In this document: positions 56,121 through 64,000 of the stretch, one piece after another | Layout: each line of letters opens with the position of its first letter | Numbering within the stretch: the first letter of the stretch is position 1 | Assembly: GCA_017415165.1 (NCBI GenBank) | Contig: JAFQIY010000069.1 | Span: forward strand, 124,001-188,000 | DNA: 64,000 bases | DNA from: Oscillospiraceae bacterium | GTDB lineage: Bacteria > Bacillota > Clostridia > Oscillospirales > Ruminococcaceae | Reading direction: 5' to 3' | Program-made: the position numbers and the translations under genes | Notes under the pieces: model-generated | Database searches by the model: none | Told to the model about the DNA's origin: nothing | The model's input: the letters and a program-made list of their open reading frames with translations, nothing else

Positions 56121-56582
56121 TTATTCTTCTGTTGTTTCTTCTGCAGCTTCTTCAGCAACAACGATTTCGATGTCTGCCTTTTCTTCAGCAACTTCTTCAA
56201 CAACCTCTTCCTCAACAACAGGCTCAGGCTTTTCGAGTGCTGCACCGCACTTGCCGCAGAAAGAATCCTCAATCGGACAGCTTGCACCGCAGCTGCACTT
56301 AACAAGACCCTTGATTGCGAGAATCTGGTTCTTCATCTCTGCAATTGTATCGAGGGAAGCTGTTACAGAGTTAACTGCGTCAGCAATTTCTGCATCAGGA
56401 TTTTCCTTGTACATATCGTAGTAATACTTACCGATAAGTGTGTAGTTTTCGCTGATAGCACGCTCGGAAGAAATAATCTTTGCGTTCAGCTTTGCAGTAT
56501 TGCCAACCTGCTTTGTCTTTTCACCTACGTTCTTGCCTGTCTCTGTGATTGTGTCAGTAATCTTTTTGATGATATCGCTCAT
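56121..56582 (-). CDS. Zinc-ribbon protein with coiled-coil N-terminus and acidic tail
   Basis: 153 residues. A helical, probably coiled-coil region (about 1-85, IKKITDTITETGKNVGEKTK) leads to a zinc ribbon CSCGASCPIEDSFCGKCG (near 95-112) and an acidic Glu/Val tail (PEPVVEEEVVEEVAEE). Such zinc-ribbon proteins of Clostridia have no known role. The ATG follows CGGAGG. It ends at the shared terminator and seems to be monocistronic. Confidence 0.8.
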   Translation of the reverse strand: MSDIIKKITDTITETGKNVGEKTKQVGNTAKLNAKIISSERAISENYTLIGKYYYDMYKENPDAEIADAVNSVTASLDTIAEMKNQILAIKGLVKCSCGASCPIEDSFCGKCGAALEKPEPVVEEEVVEEVAEEKADIEIVVAEEAAEETTEE

Positions 56583-56668: not shown

Positions 56669-57976
56669 TCAATACCCTTTTATAACTTTTTTTACAATTT
56701 TTTCAGGACACGGATTTTCCGTCGCTGTATAAGTGAAAACCTTGGCAAAATCCTCTGCAATTGCATCAATATCACATTTGGTTGAGGTATAAAGGGTTGC
56801 AATCCTTTCACCCTTGCTGACCTTGTCCCCAACGGTTTTATCGAATATTATTCCTGCTGTAAAGTCAATATCCGACTCCTTGGTTTCACGTCCTGCACCG
56901 AGTTTAAGTGAGATAAGACCTGTTTTTTCGCAGGAAATTCCTGTTACGAAGCCGTCCTCTGACGCAAATATTTCCTTTGAGCGCTTTGGCTGAGCAAAAA
57001 AGGTATAGTCATTTATCACCTCAGGATTTCCGCCCTGAAGCTGTATCATTTCGCTGAGTTTCGCGAGTGCTTTACCTGATGAAACAGCTTCCTCAGCCAT
57101 TTTTCTGCAATCCTCTGTGCTTCCCTTTCCTGCCACATAAAGCATTTCTGTTGCAAGCACAAGAGAAACCTCCAGCAAATCGTCAGGGGCATTTCCTTTA
57201 AGCGCTTCAATCGCTTCGATAACCTCAAGTGAGTTACCAACAGCACGTCCCAACGGCTTTTCCATATCTGTTATTACGGCAACACACTTCCTGCCTGCAA
57301 GCTTACCAACACGCACCATTGCGTCCGCAAGCTTTTCAGCGTCCTCGTAAGTTTTCATAAATGCACCGTCTCCGACCTTAACATCGAGGACAATTCCGTC
57401 TGCACCTGTTGCAAGCTTCTTGCTCATAATTGATGAGCAGATAAGGGGTATACTATCAACGGTAGCGGTAGCATTGCGCAATGCGTAGATTTTCTTATCA
57501 GCAGGTACAAGTGAGCCTGTCTGCCCTGCAACAGCAAGACCTGCTTTTTTTACATTCTCAACGAATTTTTCAAAGGATATTTCCGTTTTAAAACCGGGTA
57601 TGGACTCAAGCTTATCAATTGTACCGCCTGTGTGTCCAAGTCCTCTGCCTGACATTTTCGGCACGCACACACCGCAGGCAGCAACGATTGGTGCAACGAT
57701 AAGAGTAGTTTTATCACCTACGCCGCCTGTACTGTGCTTATCGACATTAAATCCGCCTGTTTCAGGTTTAATCATATCCCCTGACCTTGCCATAGCCATA
57801 GTCAGGTCGGTTGTTTCTCTGTCCGATAACGAACAAAAGCATATCGCCATAAGAAGTGCAGACATCTGATAATCGGGGATGCTGCCGGACACATATCCGG
57901 CAACAACCCAATTGATTTCCTCTGTACTTAATTCGACGTTATGCTTTTTCTTGGTAATTATTTCATAAATAGTCAT
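56669..57976 (-). CDS. pdp: Pyrimidine-nucleoside phosphorylase
   Basis: 435 residues. It splits thymidine, uridine and deoxyuridine with phosphate. The phosphate loop KHSTGGVGDKTTL, GRGLGHTGGTIDKLE and KKLATGADGIVLDVKVG are diagnostic of the DeoA/Pdp family. It complements upp in pyrimidine salvage. The ATG overlaps the stop of the SpoIID-like gene (ATGA) and has only a weak ribosome site, so it depends on coupling. A salvage enzyme at the end of a sortase operon is unexpected. Confidence 0.95.
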   Translation of the reverse strand: MTIYEIITKKKHNVELSTEEINWVVAGYVSGSIPDYQMSALLMAICFCSLSDRETTDLTMAMARSGDMIKPETGGFNVDKHSTGGVGDKTTLIVAPIVAACGVCVPKMSGRGLGHTGGTIDKLESIPGFKTEISFEKFVENVKKAGLAVAGQTGSLVPADKKIYALRNATATVDSIPLICSSIMSKKLATGADGIVLDVKVGDGAFMKTYEDAEKLADAMVRVGKLAGRKCVAVITDMEKPLGRAVGNSLEVIEAIEALKGNAPDDLLEVSLVLATEMLYVAGKGSTEDCRKMAEEAVSSGKALAKLSEMIQLQGGNPEVINDYTFFAQPKRSKEIFASEDGFVTGISCEKTGLISLKLGAGRETKESDIDFTAGIIFDKTVGDKVSKGERIATLYTSTKCDIDAIAEDFAKVFTYTATENPCPEKIVKKVIKGY

Positions 57977-59484
57977 AGCACTTCAATTCCCGTAAAATAA
58001 TGTTTGAGTATCTGTTCATAAGAATATCCCTGTTTTGCAAGAATATTCGCACCATTCTGGCTCATTCCAACACCGTGACCGTAGCCGTATGTAGTGAACG
58101 TGAAGTAGCCATCGCTGTATGTAACCTCAAAAGCTGCACTTTTGAGCTTGTAATTGAGAATTGACTCACGCATTGAACGACCTGTAATAACCTTCTGACC
58201 GTCAATATTTACCTTTGCAACGTAATTTCCGTCAATGATTTCGGTAACCGTAAACCAGTTGGACGGGTCATCCGAAAGAGTTATTCCAAGCTTTTCTTCG
58301 GTAAGCGTACGCATATTTTCCTCACTTACCTTCATCTGATAACCATAGTTCGGGTCATTTCCGACATCAAATGGGCAATACACGCTCTTGAGATACGGAA
58401 CACTGCTGCCCCATACATTCTTTGCATCGGTTGTATAACCTGACGATGAAGCCATATAAACTGTCTGTGCAACATTTCCGTTATAATAACAGCACACACC
58501 CCATACCTCGGAAACTAAATCCTTGATACGCTGAGGTACATTACCCTTAACAAGAACGGACGGAGTGAGTCCGTTTACGTTGTGATATTTAACATAAGAA
58601 TATGCTGCAACTGCCTGAGCCTTGATTGCTTCATCGCTGAAGCTTGCGGAAATCTCATTGTTGACAATCTGACAGATAAGGTCGTAAGCGTTGACTGTCT
58701 GTGTACTTCCGTTGAACTTTGCAGTAAAAGTTTCATCTGTAGAAATATCAGCACCTGTTACCACGCTGACAGATACGGACGTTTCCGTGCTTTGGGTTGA
58801 ATCATCAGTCCAGAGGGTGATAATTATATCTTCGGAAGCATCAGGAACGGTATTATCGAAATTTTCATCTTCCTCAAACACGAATGTTACTGTTTCTTCA
58901 GTTGCTTCTGTTTCAGGAGCAGCTGTCTGCTCCAGGACAATTTCCGCAGGCTCTTCCTCATCATTGGAAATCACCTTATCTTCATTTGAATCCTCACCAA
59001 AAACGGACTGCTCCATAGCTTCGGCACTTCCGTCATCATACTCATCAACATCAAAATCCTCGGGATAATCTACATCCTCATCATCTTCCTGAGGTTCTTC
59101 CGCAGATGTTTTTTCAGGAGCAGCTGAAACGGTTTTCTCAGCTTCTTCCATAACAGGTGCAGCAGTTGTCACAGCAGGTTCTTCTGTTTGTTCAGCTGTT
59201 TCTTCATCAGCAGGAGCTTCTGTCTGTTCTTCCTGAAAACTATTTTCAGGCAAAGCAGGGACAGCTTCAACAACCTCTGTTTCGTCATACACCTGAGGAA
59301 TATCAACAATTTCCGCATCTATATCTTTATATGTAATTTCAGTCACAGTTTCTGTTTCAGTCGAATAATAATATTCCATTGAAATGGCATTCTCATCAAC
59401 ATCCTCTACCATAAATGCAAAGGTATAGAAAATGCCAACCAGAAGAAGTGCCGCAATACCGCTCAGAGTGGTATTCAGCTTCAT
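57973..59484 (-). CDS. SpoIID/LytB domain protein with long acidic stalk
   Basis: 503 residues. A membrane segment or uncleaved signal (about 8-26) is followed by an extracytoplasmic stalk (about 30-245) rich in Glu, Thr, Pro, Ala and Asp, and by a SpoIID domain (about 250-503) with IVNNEISASFSDEAIKAQAVAAYSYV and GHGVGMSQNGANILA. SpoIID is a lytic transglycosylase acting on denuded glycan strands during engulfment; LytB relatives modify amidases in vegetative cells. The conserved Glu of NNE would be catalytic. The ATG follows AAAGGAGGGG. It lies 27 bases after the last sortase, suggesting one operon. Confidence 0.86.
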   Translation of the reverse strand: MKLNTTLSGIAALLLVGIFYTFAFMVEDVDENAISMEYYYSTETETVTEITYKDIDAEIVDIPQVYDETEVVEAVPALPENSFQEEQTEAPADEETAEQTEEPAVTTAAPVMEEAEKTVSAAPEKTSAEEPQEDDEDVDYPEDFDVDEYDDGSAEAMEQSVFGEDSNEDKVISNDEEEPAEIVLEQTAAPETEATEETVTFVFEEDENFDNTVPDASEDIIITLWTDDSTQSTETSVSVSVVTGADISTDETFTAKFNGSTQTVNAYDLICQIVNNEISASFSDEAIKAQAVAAYSYVKYHNVNGLTPSVLVKGNVPQRIKDLVSEVWGVCCYYNGNVAQTVYMASSSGYTTDAKNVWGSSVPYLKSVYCPFDVGNDPNYGYQMKVSEENMRTLTEEKLGITLSDDPSNWFTVTEIIDGNYVAKVNIDGQKVITGRSMRESILNYKLKSAAFEVTYSDGYFTFTTYGYGHGVGMSQNGANILAKQGYSYEQILKHYFTGIEVL

Positions 59485-59511: not shown

Positions 59512-60558
59512 TTATTCTACATATGTACCGCCATTATACTTATAATAAACAGCAGGCCACTTTGGATTTTTATTAACAGCAAAGCCTGTTGTATCAAGAT
59601 TTTCAACTGTTTCTCCCGCACGGAGCTTTCTTCCGATAATAACGTGACGTGCAGGCTCCCACTCATATGAACAAGTGGAAAGAGTAATGAACTTATCGTT
59701 TTCGTTCACATTAATTCCTGTGTGGAAATGGCTTCGTTCAGTTATTTCCTCAATAAAGGTTTCGAATGTATGATTCTTGTCAAAATTGATGTAGTTGTGA
59801 TAGTCAAAGACATTTCCGTTATCGTGCTCAGGCTCTGTATTGATAACAAAGGAAGCAAGAATAACGTATGTGCTTTGCTCATACTTGTTGTCGAAATAGA
59901 TATATGGATTCTGAAGCCAGTATTTTGCGTCCCACTTATAGAAATCCATCTGTCCGAACATTGTTCCGTCACGCTGATTATGACCGTAAAGAATAATATT
60001 ATCGGACTGTAAATCCGGATAGTCATTCACAACATTACGGTAATCGGCATAAACCGTACCGCAGGAACGTGTCTGACCATAGATATTCTTTTTGAGGTAA
60101 TAATCATTGTCATCTGCCTGAACAACAGCCTCACTCATTACACCGGGGATGGAAACATATCCTGCGTAATCCTCATTGATTGCGAGCATTTCGTCCGCAA
60201 AAGCCATATTAACCAGCGGATTTCTTATAATTTCGCCATCATCCGTAATTTCAACAGTAGGAGGAGTTGTTTCTGCCTCGCCGGACTGCACCTGATTGCT
60301 CAGGTTATTAAAAATATTATATTTGTTGCTTAAATCCTTCTGATTTTGTTTTGCTTCAAAAATATGATAGAAATATACTGCAAGGATTACTGCACAGACT
60401 ACCAGTGCAAAAATGGAAATAAGCACAATAACCTTACTTATTATAACATTTGATTTATCGCCTTTAAGCGGTATAAAGCTCTCCACAAAACCTTTCTTTT
60501 TCTTTTTCTGTGGCTGTTTATACCTTGGAGCTGCGCGGACTTCATCCGACATTGCCAT
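59512..60558 (-). CDS. Class B sortase, array member 1
   Basis: 348 residues. A short basic cytoplasmic N-terminus (KKKKKG), membrane segment at about 38-66, a stalk, and a class B catalytic domain with His193 (ILYGHNQ), Cys296 (TLSTCS) and Arg304 (EPAR). Sortases cleave a C-terminal sorting motif (NPQTN-like or LPxTG) and join the protein to peptidoglycan or pili. No such substrate is visible. The ATG is about 11 bases after AAAGGA, a long spacing. Fourth in transcription order, ahead of SpoIID. Confidence 0.92.
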   Translation of the reverse strand: MAMSDEVRAAPRYKQPQKKKKKGFVESFIPLKGDKSNVIISKVIVLISIFALVVCAVILAVYFYHIFEAKQNQKDLSNKYNIFNNLSNQVQSGEAETTPPTVEITDDGEIIRNPLVNMAFADEMLAINEDYAGYVSIPGVMSEAVVQADDNDYYLKKNIYGQTRSCGTVYADYRNVVNDYPDLQSDNIILYGHNQRDGTMFGQMDFYKWDAKYWLQNPYIYFDNKYEQSTYVILASFVINTEPEHDNGNVFDYHNYINFDKNHTFETFIEEITERSHFHTGINVNENDKFITLSTCSYEWEPARHVIIGRKLRAGETVENLDTTGFAVNKNPKWPAVYYKYNGGTYVE

Positions 60559-60593
60559 TTGGTAACCATTCCTTTCTTTTTCTGCACATTAAG

Positions 60594-62462
60594 TTACGGA
60601 GTAACAGTTGTTTCTTCGGCAGCTGAACTTTCAGAAGGCGCTGTTGTTTCCGCTGTTTCAGCTTCTGCCGCTTCATCGGGAGCAGAGGTTTCGGCAGCCG
60701 ATGTTTCCTCATCGGAAACAGTGGTTTCAGCCGCCTTGGTTGCGGTTTTCAATTCCTTCATTTTTTCAGCATAGCTTTTATACTTCTTTTTGGTTGTTTT
60801 CTCAGTAACCTTTTCGGAAGCTTCAGGAGCAGTAGTTTCTTCTGTTATTTCAGTTTCTTCCGTTTCCTCTGTTTCAGAAGCTTCTTCTGTTTCCTCTGTT
60901 TCTTCCGTTTCAGAAATTTCCTCGGTAAGTGTTGTTTCGTTGGACATAATTGCTTCCCAGTCAACACCCTCAGCATTATAATTAAGGTATGCTTCTGAAA
61001 AATCAAAATCCTCTATTGACTCGCCGTCACGGAGACGTCTTGCGAAAACAACAAAACGCGAATCCGAAAACTCATTTGAACAGGTTGAGAGACAAAGCAG
61101 CTTGTCACCGTATTGAACATCAACAGGAGATACAATCTGATTACGCTTCTGAACTTCATTTATATACCAGTTGAAGGTTTCTTCATCATTAAGTGTCTCT
61201 ATGTAGTCGTGATAATGGAAAACGATACCGCTGCTATGCTGTTCAGGTCTTACGTGAGTTACAAAGTAACCGTAAATCACATACTCCCCTGTTTCAAACT
61301 CAGGGCTGAACTTGATAACGGGATTTTCCTGATAGAATTCAACATTCTGCTTATAATCCTTCAGATTGCCGAACATTGTACCGTCTTCCTGATTATGTCC
61401 GTAAAAAACGATGTTCGGAGATATATATTCCTCGCTTACGGTACAGCGGTAATCAAGGAACACCGTTCCTGCCTTGTTTGTACCGCCGTAATAGTTATGG
61501 TCGAGATAATAATCATTGTCATCGCCCTGCATTATAGGCTCATAAATGTCGCATCCGTCCACTTCAAGGTAGCCGATATAATCCTCATTGATGCTTTTGA
61601 AATGTTCTGCAACATTGAAATTGTGCTCGGCAATTTCTTCCTCGGTAGGAGCAATCGTAATAATATTTCCCTCGCTGTCAACCGTCGTTGCAACGGTCGT
61701 TGTGATAATGCTCTGGTTTTCCTTTTTCTCCTCAACCGCTTCTTCGGACTGTATAAGCGTGCTGACAAGCATTACACCTGCTCCGACAAAAACAATTACC
61801 GCAGCAAGGAAAATAATTTTTCTGATTATTTCACCTATGCTGTCGCCTTTCCAAGGAAAAAGACCTTTCAGAAATCTTTTCAGAAACTTATCATTTACAT
61901 CTTCCGGCATTTCTTCGGCAGCCTCCTCAGGCTTTTCTGCTTTTTCATTTTCCTCAGCAGGTTCAACTGTTTCTTCTTTTTCAGCTTCATCTGCTGCTGA
62001 ATTATCCTCAGGCTGTTCAGTTTCATCAGGAGTTTCAGTCTGCGCTTCGGAAACAAGCGCCGCAGCTTCCGCTTCCGTCATTTCCTCAGAATCTATATTG
62101 TCTTTCCAAAGGGAAGCTTCACCGAGTATTGCCTCCTCGACCATCGCCTCTATATTTTCTTCCTTTTTCAGAATAAAATCCGCATTTTCGGATTCTGAAG
62201 TATCAATTTCCAGTATTTCCTCGGGAATTTCCTCGTCCTCATCTGCGACATCTTCCAGAAATATCTCCTCGGTAACTTCATCGGAATTTTCTTCAGCAAT
62301 TCCGTCCTGTTCTTCAACTGAGTTCACATCGTTAATATCAGTTTCAGCAATAAACTCCTCCTCGGGGAGTACTTCATCATTGCCCTTTTTTTCATTTACG
62401 GCATTATCATATTCCTCAAGGATATCGTCTACTGTATATTTTTTTTCTTCATTATTGGGCAT
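60594..62462 (-). CDS. Class B sortase with long acidic N- and C-terminal tails, array member 2
   Basis: 622 residues, about twice the usual length. Residues 1-190 are a very acidic cytoplasmic region (EEEFIAETDINDVNSVEE, AAALVSEAQTETPDETEQ); a basic patch (about 192-215) and membrane segment (about 215-238) follow. The catalytic domain (about 285-500) has His356 (FYGHNQ), Cys461 (LSTCS) and Arg469. The last 115 residues are an outside tail of EETEE and Ala/Thr/Glu repeats with a KKKYKSYAEKMKELK island. All three catalytic residues are intact. The long tails are not typical for SrtB. The ATG follows AGAGGT. Confidence 0.9.
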   Translation of the reverse strand: MPNNEEKKYTVDDILEEYDNAVNEKKGNDEVLPEEEFIAETDINDVNSVEEQDGIAEENSDEVTEEIFLEDVADEDEEIPEEILEIDTSESENADFILKKEENIEAMVEEAILGEASLWKDNIDSEEMTEAEAAALVSEAQTETPDETEQPEDNSAADEAEKEETVEPAEENEKAEKPEEAAEEMPEDVNDKFLKRFLKGLFPWKGDSIGEIIRKIIFLAAVIVFVGAGVMLVSTLIQSEEAVEEKKENQSIITTTVATTVDSEGNIITIAPTEEEIAEHNFNVAEHFKSINEDYIGYLEVDGCDIYEPIMQGDDNDYYLDHNYYGGTNKAGTVFLDYRCTVSEEYISPNIVFYGHNQEDGTMFGNLKDYKQNVEFYQENPVIKFSPEFETGEYVIYGYFVTHVRPEQHSSGIVFHYHDYIETLNDEETFNWYINEVQKRNQIVSPVDVQYGDKLLCLSTCSNEFSDSRFVVFARRLRDGESIEDFDFSEAYLNYNAEGVDWEAIMSNETTLTEEISETEETEETEEASETEETEETEITEETTAPEASEKVTEKTTKKKYKSYAEKMKELKTATKAAETTVSDEETSAAETSAPDEAAEAETAETTAPSESSAAEETTVTP

Positions 62463-62476
62463 AAGTAAAATACCTC

Positions 62477-63466
62477 TTACTGGTTATATATAAAATTATA
62501 ATCAGGCTCAAGCATATCGGAATTGATTTCCGCAAGAGAAACATTAACCTCAGGACTTTCGCCGTCACGGACACGTCTGCCGATTACAACAAAACGTGAT
62601 GGTTCAAATTCGTTTGAACAGGTTGAAAGTGTAATGAACTTATCATCCTCATTAAAGTCAACACCTGTATTTACAGCTGTTCTTGCAAGGAGATTTTCTT
62701 CAAAGGCTGAAAAGCTCTTTTTCTTTGTAAAGTTCACATAGTTGTGATAATCCCAGATAAGACCGTCTCTTGTCTGATAAGGCTCAACCTCGATAACGAA
62801 CATTCCTATGATTTTGTATGTATATTCCTCATAGAGATTACTGAATGTAAATGTGGGATTTTCAAGATAGAAGTCAAAGTTCTTGGTGCTGTCCTTTTTG
62901 ATTTTATATTTTTTCAGAGTACCGAACATTGTTCCGTCAGCCTGATTGTGACCGTAGATAATGAGGTTGTCCGACTGATTATCGTTATAGTCATTGGCAA
63001 TACATCTGAAATCAATATAAAGCTGACCTGCAATATTATAATTGCCGTCAAAATCCTTATCAAGATAATAATCGTTATTGTCGGTCTGAACAATAACATT
63101 GTCGATATTGGTATTCGGAACAGTAATCCAGCCTGCCGTATCGGGGTTGTCCTCAACAAAGCCCTTCATACTCTCCAGAAGCACCAGCGGAGGCGGCTCG
63201 GTTTCAACGGGAGTCGTGTCGGAAGGAGCTGTTGTTTCCGTTGTTGTTGCAGGAGTAATAACAGTTGCAGCAGAGGTATGCTTGTTACGCATATCATCAA
63301 TATCACTCTGATTTTTCGCCTGCTGAACAAAATACCACGCAAGGATTGCAAGTGATGCAATCAGCACCACACAGCAAACCAATGTTATAATTTTTCTTGC
63401 AAGCTCAACCTTTGAATCGCCCCTGCGCGGAAGAAGCTTGTCTATAATGCTTGTATTTTTCGCCAT
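62477..63466 (-). CDS. Class B sortase, array member 3
   Basis: 329 residues. Short N-terminus with RRGDSKVELARK, a membrane segment (about 25-48), a Thr/Pro-rich stalk (about 64-92, TPATTTETTAPSD), and a catalytic domain with His173 (IYGHNQ), Cys283 (TLSTCS) and Arg291 (EPSR). The ATG follows GAGGTTT by 7-8 bases, and 12 bases separate it from the upstream sortase stop. Closely related to member 4 in the ending SNEFEPSRFVV. Confidence 0.92.
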   Translation of the reverse strand: MAKNTSIIDKLLPRRGDSKVELARKIITLVCCVVLIASLAILAWYFVQQAKNQSDIDDMRNKHTSAATVITPATTTETTAPSDTTPVETEPPPLVLLESMKGFVEDNPDTAGWITVPNTNIDNVIVQTDNNDYYLDKDFDGNYNIAGQLYIDFRCIANDYNDNQSDNLIIYGHNQADGTMFGTLKKYKIKKDSTKNFDFYLENPTFTFSNLYEEYTYKIIGMFVIEVEPYQTRDGLIWDYHNYVNFTKKKSFSAFEENLLARTAVNTGVDFNEDDKFITLSTCSNEFEPSRFVVIGRRVRDGESPEVNVSLAEINSDMLEPDYNFIYNQ

Positions 63467-63478
63467 AAATAAACCTCA

Positions 63479-64000
63479 TTACTTATAAATTACGTCCCAG
63501 TCAGGCTCTTTCGCCTCAGTGTTAAGGTAAGCCAGTGAAACATCAACCTCAGAGTTCTCCCCCTCTCTGACTTTTCTTGCAAAAACGACAAATCTTGAAG
63601 GTTCAAATTCATTTGAGCAAGTAGAAAGTGTAAGGAACTCGTCGCCGTACTGCACGTCCACAGGCGTAATAATCTGTGTTCGTAGCATTATATTATCAAT
63701 AAAGCTGTTGTATTCCGATTTATCCTTGAAATTCAGTTCATTATGATAATCGAAGATTACGCCGTCCGCTGTCTGTGATTCGAGAACGGGAGTTACGAAG
63801 TACGCAAATATCTTATATGTGTCAGCCTTATAGTTGGAGCTGAACTGAATTACAGGATGCTCTGAATAATATGTCAGATTTTTCTTATAGTTGGCAAGGT
63901 CACCGAACATTGACTTATCCTTCTGATTGTGACCGTACAGGATAAGATTGTCGGAGCGCTCACGGGCACTGATTTTGTTGCGTCTGTCCATAAAGACAGT
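63479..64000 (-). CDS. Class B sortase, array member 4 (5' end outside window)
   Basis: 174 codons of the catalytic part are visible; the N-terminus and membrane anchor are beyond 64000. The catalytic His is in ILYGHNQKDKSMFG, the Cys in TLSTCSNEFEPSRFVVFA with the Arg eight residues later. Domain features match members 2 and 3. The frame continues past the window edge without a stop, so more sortase or substrate genes may lie upstream. Confidence 0.9.
   Translation of the reverse strand, partial: TVFMDRRNKISARERSDNLILYGHNQKDKSMFGDLANYKKNLTYYSEHPVIQFSSNYKADTYKIFAYFVTPVLESQTADGVIFDYHNELNFKDKSEYNSFIDNIMLRTQIITPVDVQYGDEFLTLSTCSNEFEPSRFVVFARKVREGENSEVDVSLAYLNTEAKEPDWDVIYK

Follow-up and report, generated by a model that had tools for sequence, protein, structure and literature searches.

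The 64,000-nucleotide stretch of an Oscillospiraceae genome studied here (contig JAFQIY010000069.1, positions 124,001 to 188,000; hereafter the window) ends in four consecutive minus-strand genes for class B sortases, srtB1 to srtB4 (59512-64000), separated, from 59512 upward, by gaps of 35, 14 and 12 bases. This array is real, conserved and probably functional. Our preferred reading, to which comparison of the sequences gives slightly better than even chances, is that it encodes conserved, active and non-interchangeable class B sortases that would form a wall-anchoring machinery with a SpoIID-type enzyme, the copies being split between two classes of sorting signal.

Class B assignment and catalytic residues

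Open reading frames (ORFs) and matches to the Pfam Sortase family PF04203 confirm four consecutive minus-strand sortase genes, the last cut by the window, as the earlier note had described them. The truncated gene, srtB1 (63479..64000), is entire in the assembly (L006 9480-10439, 319 aa) and would reach window coordinate 64438. The product of srtB2 (62477..63466, 329 aa) has a membrane helix, and that of srtB3 (60594..62462, 622 aa) carries a long acidic part N-terminal to its helix (median 203 aa with 28% Asp/Glu across 44 four-copy loci) together with a Thr/Glu-rich C-terminal tail. The class B sortase model TIGR03064 is the top NCBIfam match for all four proteins (E 2e-45 to 2e-38); relative to its curated cut-off of 153.75 bits, srtB1 lies just above (154.8) and srtB2-4 lie below (131.9, 132.6 and 138.8), and all four pass PF04203. 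The remaining member of the array, srtB4 (59512..60558, 348 aa), is the sole copy modelled and is predicted to adopt the class B fold: the model (mean predicted local distance difference test, pLDDT, 81.4) is closest to solved class B sortases, which occupy the first 19 Foldseek rows.

In the source assembly (2.62 Mb, 75 contigs, 93% complete), PF04203 detects five sortases, namely the array copies and a solo gene on contig C35 (L007:9234-10166). This fifth sortase has a lipobox-like start by eye, is the sister of the srtB2 clade in our sortase-domain tree, and lies in a neighbourhood that includes two CotH kinases and transglutaminase-core genes; TIGR03064 is the top match for all five. An alignment of the five shows no variation in the catalytic His, Cys and Arg, and these residues are intact in 174 of 176 array copies from the 44 four-copy loci, the remaining two running off contig ends. 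The extra copies therefore do not look dead and are predicted to be active, and the inactivity that the earlier note had entertained for them was not found.

Conservation and phylogeny of the array

A genome-collection scan, from which the best 80 of 390 relatives were taken, yielded 71 distinct loci, all from records titled MAG (metagenome-assembled genome), uncultured or Candidatus, many of which cite herbivore gut samples. The nearest srtB1 among these best 80 shares 89% identity. Of these loci, 43 share the run of four consecutive copies (44 with our own), a recurrence that argues against a chance arrangement; the others comprise eight three-copy loci (L130, L132-L138), 15 arrays at contig ends and five loci arranged otherwise (L146-L150). 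Among the source genome and 20 members of its genus, 16 of 21 have at least four sortases, three genomes (G002, G008, G017) have three, G020 has one and G012 none. Genome G004 has six, two of them on another contig with higher PF04203 scores.

In a single FastTree of the sortase domain, rooted on single-copy sortases and with some low deep supports, each array position forms a clade of its own, with 44 of 44 copies placed in it for each of positions 1-3 and 43, all that were usable, for position 4 (supports 0.29, 0.76, 1.0 and 0.996 for positions 1-4); the remaining members of these clades are genes from contig-end arrays. Identity is 64-69% within a position versus about 40-49% between positions (300 random pairs each). 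The three-copy arrays consist in this tree of two srtB1-like genes and one srtB4-like gene, without srtB2 and srtB3. Anchors vary as well, with a lipobox-like start replacing the helix in srtB2 of 5 of the 44 four-copy loci and a lipobox-like start in the third gene of 7 of the 8 three-copy loci. Tandem copies arose, on the evidence of this tree, more than once, as the copies of L076, L147 and L149, the three L078 copies and the two L077 copies all lie on branches outside the four-copy clades.

Several loci have additional genes or unusual arrangements. One subgroup has a further membrane-protein-like ORF in the srtB1-srtB2 interval (L103:2721-3761, L107:2658-3713, L121:10891-11985), for which the L103 copy has no Pfam match. 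In another subgroup a gene lies between iscS and thiI (L105:7766-8596, with similar ORFs in L126 and L128), and Pfam assigns a PIN7 domain to the L105 copy only. The contig-end array L081:1041-5741 has iscS and thiI on the strand opposite to the sortases, and its srtB2 frame ends 27 bases short of the contig end.

Candidate substrates encoded elsewhere in the genome

Standard models and a DNA pattern failed to identify sorting signals, and a lineage-specific profile was therefore needed. Neither Gram_pos_anchor (PF00746) nor the srtB_target model gave a match over cut-off in the source genome, the best PF00746 match (E 0.023) being one of the tailed proteins described below; a degenerate DNA pattern produced 5 sites against 11 in backward-read controls and was dropped. 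A first profile, built from tails of relatives (SPATGN, NPKTGN, SPNTGN) and one tail of the source genome, returned nine proteins from that genome (the one that had served as a profile row at E 5e-12, the remaining eight at E 5e-9 to 0.003), so that the scan for C-terminal sorting signals envisaged in the earlier note did yield candidates. Six of the genes stand in tandem beside rplQ/rpoA (L179 6032-10811), and three are single (L180 5607-6329, L181 5499-7151 and L182 4391-5203). All nine proteins have a signal-peptide-like start and end in TGN, an Ala-rich helix and Lys. Their signals read STETGN, ATETGN, APPTGN, APETGN, IPDTGN, NPTTGN, APTTGN, NPTTGN and APKTGN, with Pro at P3 in seven of nine, and Ala/Pro/Thr-rich linkers precede the signal in the candidate substrates. 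Since all five sortases match the class B model best, these signals are, judged from sequence, most likely acted on by the class B sortases of the same genome.

A refined profile that takes in these nine detects between one and nine tails in every one of the 21 genus genomes. It also detects six in G022, and tails in 6 of the remaining 39 genomes. Tandem tailed genes occur in most of 20 stretches from relatives, with rplQ within the stretch in 8 of 20. The earlier note had stated that no substrate is encoded locally. For the window this stands, as no ORF of at least 40 aa matches the lineage profile below E 0.11; it does not hold for the genome, where candidates lie elsewhere, nor for relatives in general, as G006 and G007 carry a tailed gene upstream of the array, in the iscS-thiI interval, and hence a local candidate.

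None of the nine candidate substrates passes a Pfam cut-off (SpaA in one, E 0.065, 13.8 versus 23.1 bits), no pilin motif was seen in them by eye, and no pilin-like gene (CnaB/SpaA) occurs among the named neighbours of the sortases. A profile of one tandem family (17 rows) matches PDB chains of xylanase 10C (1gny, its CBM15 module; E 0.0012); this is a weak hint, as the match begins in the signal peptide. Neither a second tandem family nor the large family found a match in the PDB at E 1, and a mixed alignment gave signal-peptide matches only, to a pullulanase (E 0.019). The structure model of a tailed protein beside thiI in L084 has a pLDDT of 40. Small tailed proteins also occur: L179:10494-10811 encodes a wall-signal protein of 105 aa that in its mature form consists largely of acidic residues, Val and Thr, and 19 of 21 genus genomes have a tailed ORF of 101-150 aa.

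Two classes of sorting signal

Among 130 distinct tailed proteins (199 hits before duplicate removal), the signals as aligned here form two classes, (N/S)PxTGN and a relaxed class in which Ala is as frequent as Pro at P3. Of 27 small tailed proteins, 25 carry Pro at P3 and 23 carry Asn at P4; of 15 large ones, 14 carry Pro at P3. In the middle-sized proteins (n=88, of which at least three rows were misread by the script, two as MALTGA and one as blank) P3 is Ala in 42, Pro in 34 and Thr in 7, and Thr and Gly of the motif are kept in 87 and Asn in 83.

The occurrence of the classes correlates with the composition of the array. All 12 tail matches in six three-copy genomes read NP[EKS]TGN. Of 13 four-copy genomes searched with a relaxed-class profile, 11 give matches at E < 1e-10 and the other two give weaker ones (G083 6.6e-6, G070 5.8e-5); five of the 11 contributed rows to the profile, and 6 of 8 pass when row donors are excluded. 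The same profile detects no relaxed-class protein in eight three-copy genomes, its three weak matches there being NPETGN proteins.

Residues at substrate-contacting sites

The available text on Bacillus anthracis SrtB places K143 near P2' and Y191 and S231 near P4 of the bound signal (PMC11987632). We transferred these sites by alignment to 2oqw, with the offset taken from R243. At the K143 equivalent, srtB1 has Lys/Arg in 44 of 44 copies and srtB4 in 41 of 44, srtB2 has Ala in 32 of 44 and srtB3 has Glu in 36 of 44, a split that would parallel the one expected from the signal classes. The Y191 equivalent, on the P4 side, is mostly His in srtB1-3 and Gln in 23 of 44 copies of srtB4. The P3 pocket (L106, F121, Y138) is largely kept, with greater variation in srtB2. 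The four separate clades in the tree with relatives and the position-specific residues at two substrate-contacting sites both favour the earlier note's view that the divergence of the copies is functional.

The SpoIID-like gene and other neighbours

A SpoIID/LytB-domain gene (57973..59484, minus strand, 503 aa) lies directly downstream of srtB4. A SpoIID-domain gene is next after the array in all 41 testable four-copy loci and all 7 testable three-copy loci. SpoIID proteins cleave glycan strands. The window protein scores 138.2 bits against TIGR02669 (SpoIID/LytB; cut-off 83.3) and 158.4 bits against TIGR02870, the SpoIID sporulation equivalog, whose cut-off is 234.75. Two further SpoIID-domain genes occur in the genome, one of which, on C35, outscores the array copy in Pfam (82.7 versus 36.1 bits); by these sequence matches, the array protein is separate from both. 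A Clostridium acetobutylicum study names four potential sortase substrates, one of them SpoIID-like, and discounts that one (PMC4877998); we likewise rejected this role for the window copy, which has no sorting tail.

Sortase and SpoIID parts are physically joined in some relatives. The gene order iscS-thiI-cinA-srtB(s)-spoIID, which we present as the ancestral locus, is found in L078 and L147, and from thiI onward in L149. CinA parts are fused to SrtB in L076 and L077 (Pfam) and in L154 and L155 (BLAST), and single ORFs encode CinA-SrtB-SpoIID at the iscS-thiI locus of L148 (8717-12202, 1161 aa) and L150 (8615-12214, 1199 aa). Pfam confirms every part in L148 and leaves the CinA parts of L150 under cut-off; in L146, an apparent CinA-SrtB fusion has a weak CinA part and an ORF that extends to the contig end. 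The topology of the fusions is consistent, with the CinA part N-terminal to the helix and sortase and SpoIID C-terminal to it. The CinA-SrtB-SpoIID fusions hint at a coupling of wall anchoring to the opening of peptidoglycan. In titles and abstract openings, with few subscription papers covered, we found no literature on tandem class B sortases in this group or on CinA-sortase or sortase-SpoIID fusions.

Upstream of srtB1, the assembly contig (L006) carries thiI and iscS on the same strand, and the substrate-sortase pairs that the earlier note had considered there were not found. Among relatives, thiI lies upstream on the same strand in 24 of 42 testable four-copy loci and 8 of 8 three-copy loci. 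The 204-base gap between thiI and srtB1 contains a terminator-like hairpin after thiI and a promoter-like site with an 11/12 match, both called as consensus matches only; sites of this grade number four in 9.3 kb, and the array region has 33 promoter-like sites versus 18.8 in shuffles. These features and the short intergenic gaps agree with the earlier proposal of one operon, and the array probably starts its own transcript. Downstream, the SpoIID-like gene overlaps by 4 bases a pyrimidine-nucleoside phosphorylase gene (deoA/pdp, 56669..57976, minus strand); deoA follows in 35 of 38 four-copy and 5 of 7 three-copy loci, a conserved neighbour that probably lies outside the function of the array. 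Beyond it lies a small gene with a zinc-ribbon-like part by eye (56121..56582, minus strand), a neighbour in many four-copy loci. Near the end of the contig, a tRNA-Leu with an adjoining phage-type integrase gene (L006:14152-15512) probably marks an integrated element close to the array.

Proposed function and alternatives

The substrates would be secreted proteins whose genes lie away from the array and which end in xxxTGN, an Ala-rich helix and Lys/Arg. Cleavage by a sortase would fall between Thr and Gly, and Thr would then be linked to an amine group in the peptidoglycan stem, the reaction shown for Clostridioides difficile SrtB. The srtB1 and srtB4 lineages, shared with the three-copy relatives, would serve (N/S)PxTGN signals, srtB2 and/or srtB3 the relaxed signals of the tandem family, and the SpoIID-like protein may open or trim glycan near the anchoring site. 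Cutting, anchoring, enzyme-signal pairing and cooperation with the SpoIID-like protein are all inferred from sequence. A bolder form, which we offer tentatively, treats the sortases and the SpoIID-type enzyme as one unit, given that they are one polypeptide in two relatives, with duplicated copies reading Pro-independent signals for the tandem-expanded family.

Several observations weigh against the preferred reading. P2' is Asn in both signal classes, which the K143 site therefore cannot by itself distinguish; the P4-side site divides the copies differently, srtB1-srtB3 versus srtB4, so that no single consistent split emerges; and the P3 pocket, as aligned, offers no clear reason for the loss of Pro. 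Pro, a constant of known sorting motifs, is often missing from the relaxed signals, which is unusual, and Thr occupies P3 in 2 of 9 signals of the source genome. Because the tail profiles derive from this very lineage, the distribution of tails is partly circular, and a profile containing TGN selects for TGN. The contrast with three-copy genomes is a correlation that may reflect one evolutionary event, and a thiI tree leaves the direction of change between three and four copies undecided. Genome G012 (78% complete) has seven tails and no sortase found, and in 18 of the 42 four-copy loci where thiI could be sought upstream, none was found on the sortase strand. Finally, synteny with the SpoIID-like gene is no proof of joint action with the sortases.

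A first alternative is redundancy, with four versions of a single housekeeping sortase, alike in specificity, retained for dosage or for control by growth stage. All four share the same triad, positions 1-3 have a near-identical motif adjacent to Cys, and most examined subsite residues are shared, as is Asn at P2' between the signal classes. Such redundancy sits poorly with strict positional orthology over 44 loci, with the lower identity between than within positions, and with residues at the K143 and P4 sites that differ by array position, and we consider it unlikely. The presence of Ala at P3 as often as Pro in the middle-sized signals, contrary to known motifs, would instead be accounted for if the relaxed xxxTGN tails were membrane anchors, only the few (N/S)PxTGN proteins were substrates and the extra copies had other clients. 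A simple anchor would have no need of the near-invariant T, G and N, although this conservation is in part a product of selection by the profile, and one protein family contains both kinds of signal, SPATGN in L048 and L050 and ATETGN in L151. We regard the membrane-anchor explanation as quite improbable.

The earlier note had also suggested stepwise assembly of a surface structure, and several sortases together with tandem small substrates do resemble pilus gene sets numerically; moreover, the available text of PMC11987632 describes a class B sortase of Streptococcus pyogenes that polymerises pili. The copies would then link small tandem proteins stepwise, with one copy anchoring the product. 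Here, sortases and candidate substrates are on separate contigs, the nine candidates include no protein with an above-cut-off match to pilin or CnaB families or with a pilin motif visible by eye, and the Ala/Pro/Thr-rich linkers fit plain wall display. With nothing found that points to a polymer, a sortase-built pilus or layered surface polymer seems very improbable. The preferred reading, a set of anchoring sortases divided between signal classes, predicts which surface proteins gut relatives of Ruminococcus attach to their walls.

Comparison with known class B sortases

The S. pyogenes pilus sortase Spy0129 has a class B fold and appears in the Foldseek list of srtB4 (3psq). It acts in pilus assembly; no pilin-like candidate substrate was found here, and CnaB/SpaA substrates, which mark a sortase-assembled pilus locus, were not seen among the named neighbours of the sortases. 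SrtB of B. anthracis is the top PDB sequence match of srtB1 (E 3.6e-28), and the NPKTG/NPQTN signals of the B. anthracis and Staphylococcus aureus enzymes (isd type) resemble the NPxTGN class (PMC11987632). According to the same source the isd-type enzyme serves one haem protein, IsdC, whereas many candidate substrates occur here; no haem gene was seen adjoining the array, and in place of the adjacent substrate gene of the isd type we find thiI and iscS upstream and a window with no tailed ORF.

A further parallel is C. difficile, whose sortase structure 4ux7 is third in the Foldseek list for srtB4. According to PMC4591827, its SrtB acts on (S/P)PXTG substrates, cutting between Thr and Gly and linking them to diaminopimelic acid. 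There, a single conserved SrtB goes with seven putative substrates, so the earlier note's premise that class B sortases are usually single genes beside their substrate is not general. The two systems share the class B fold, xPxTG motifs and the use of one enzyme class for several proteins. They differ in that C. difficile has a single conserved sortase, whereas four tandem copies, a SpoIID-like gene, tandem candidate substrates and sometimes Pro-less signals occur here. In the available text of PMC4591827 and PMC11987632, class B sortases are single enzymes with one or few clients. The long-kept, position-stable four-copy set with copy-associated signal classes provides a natural test of substrate division among sortases.

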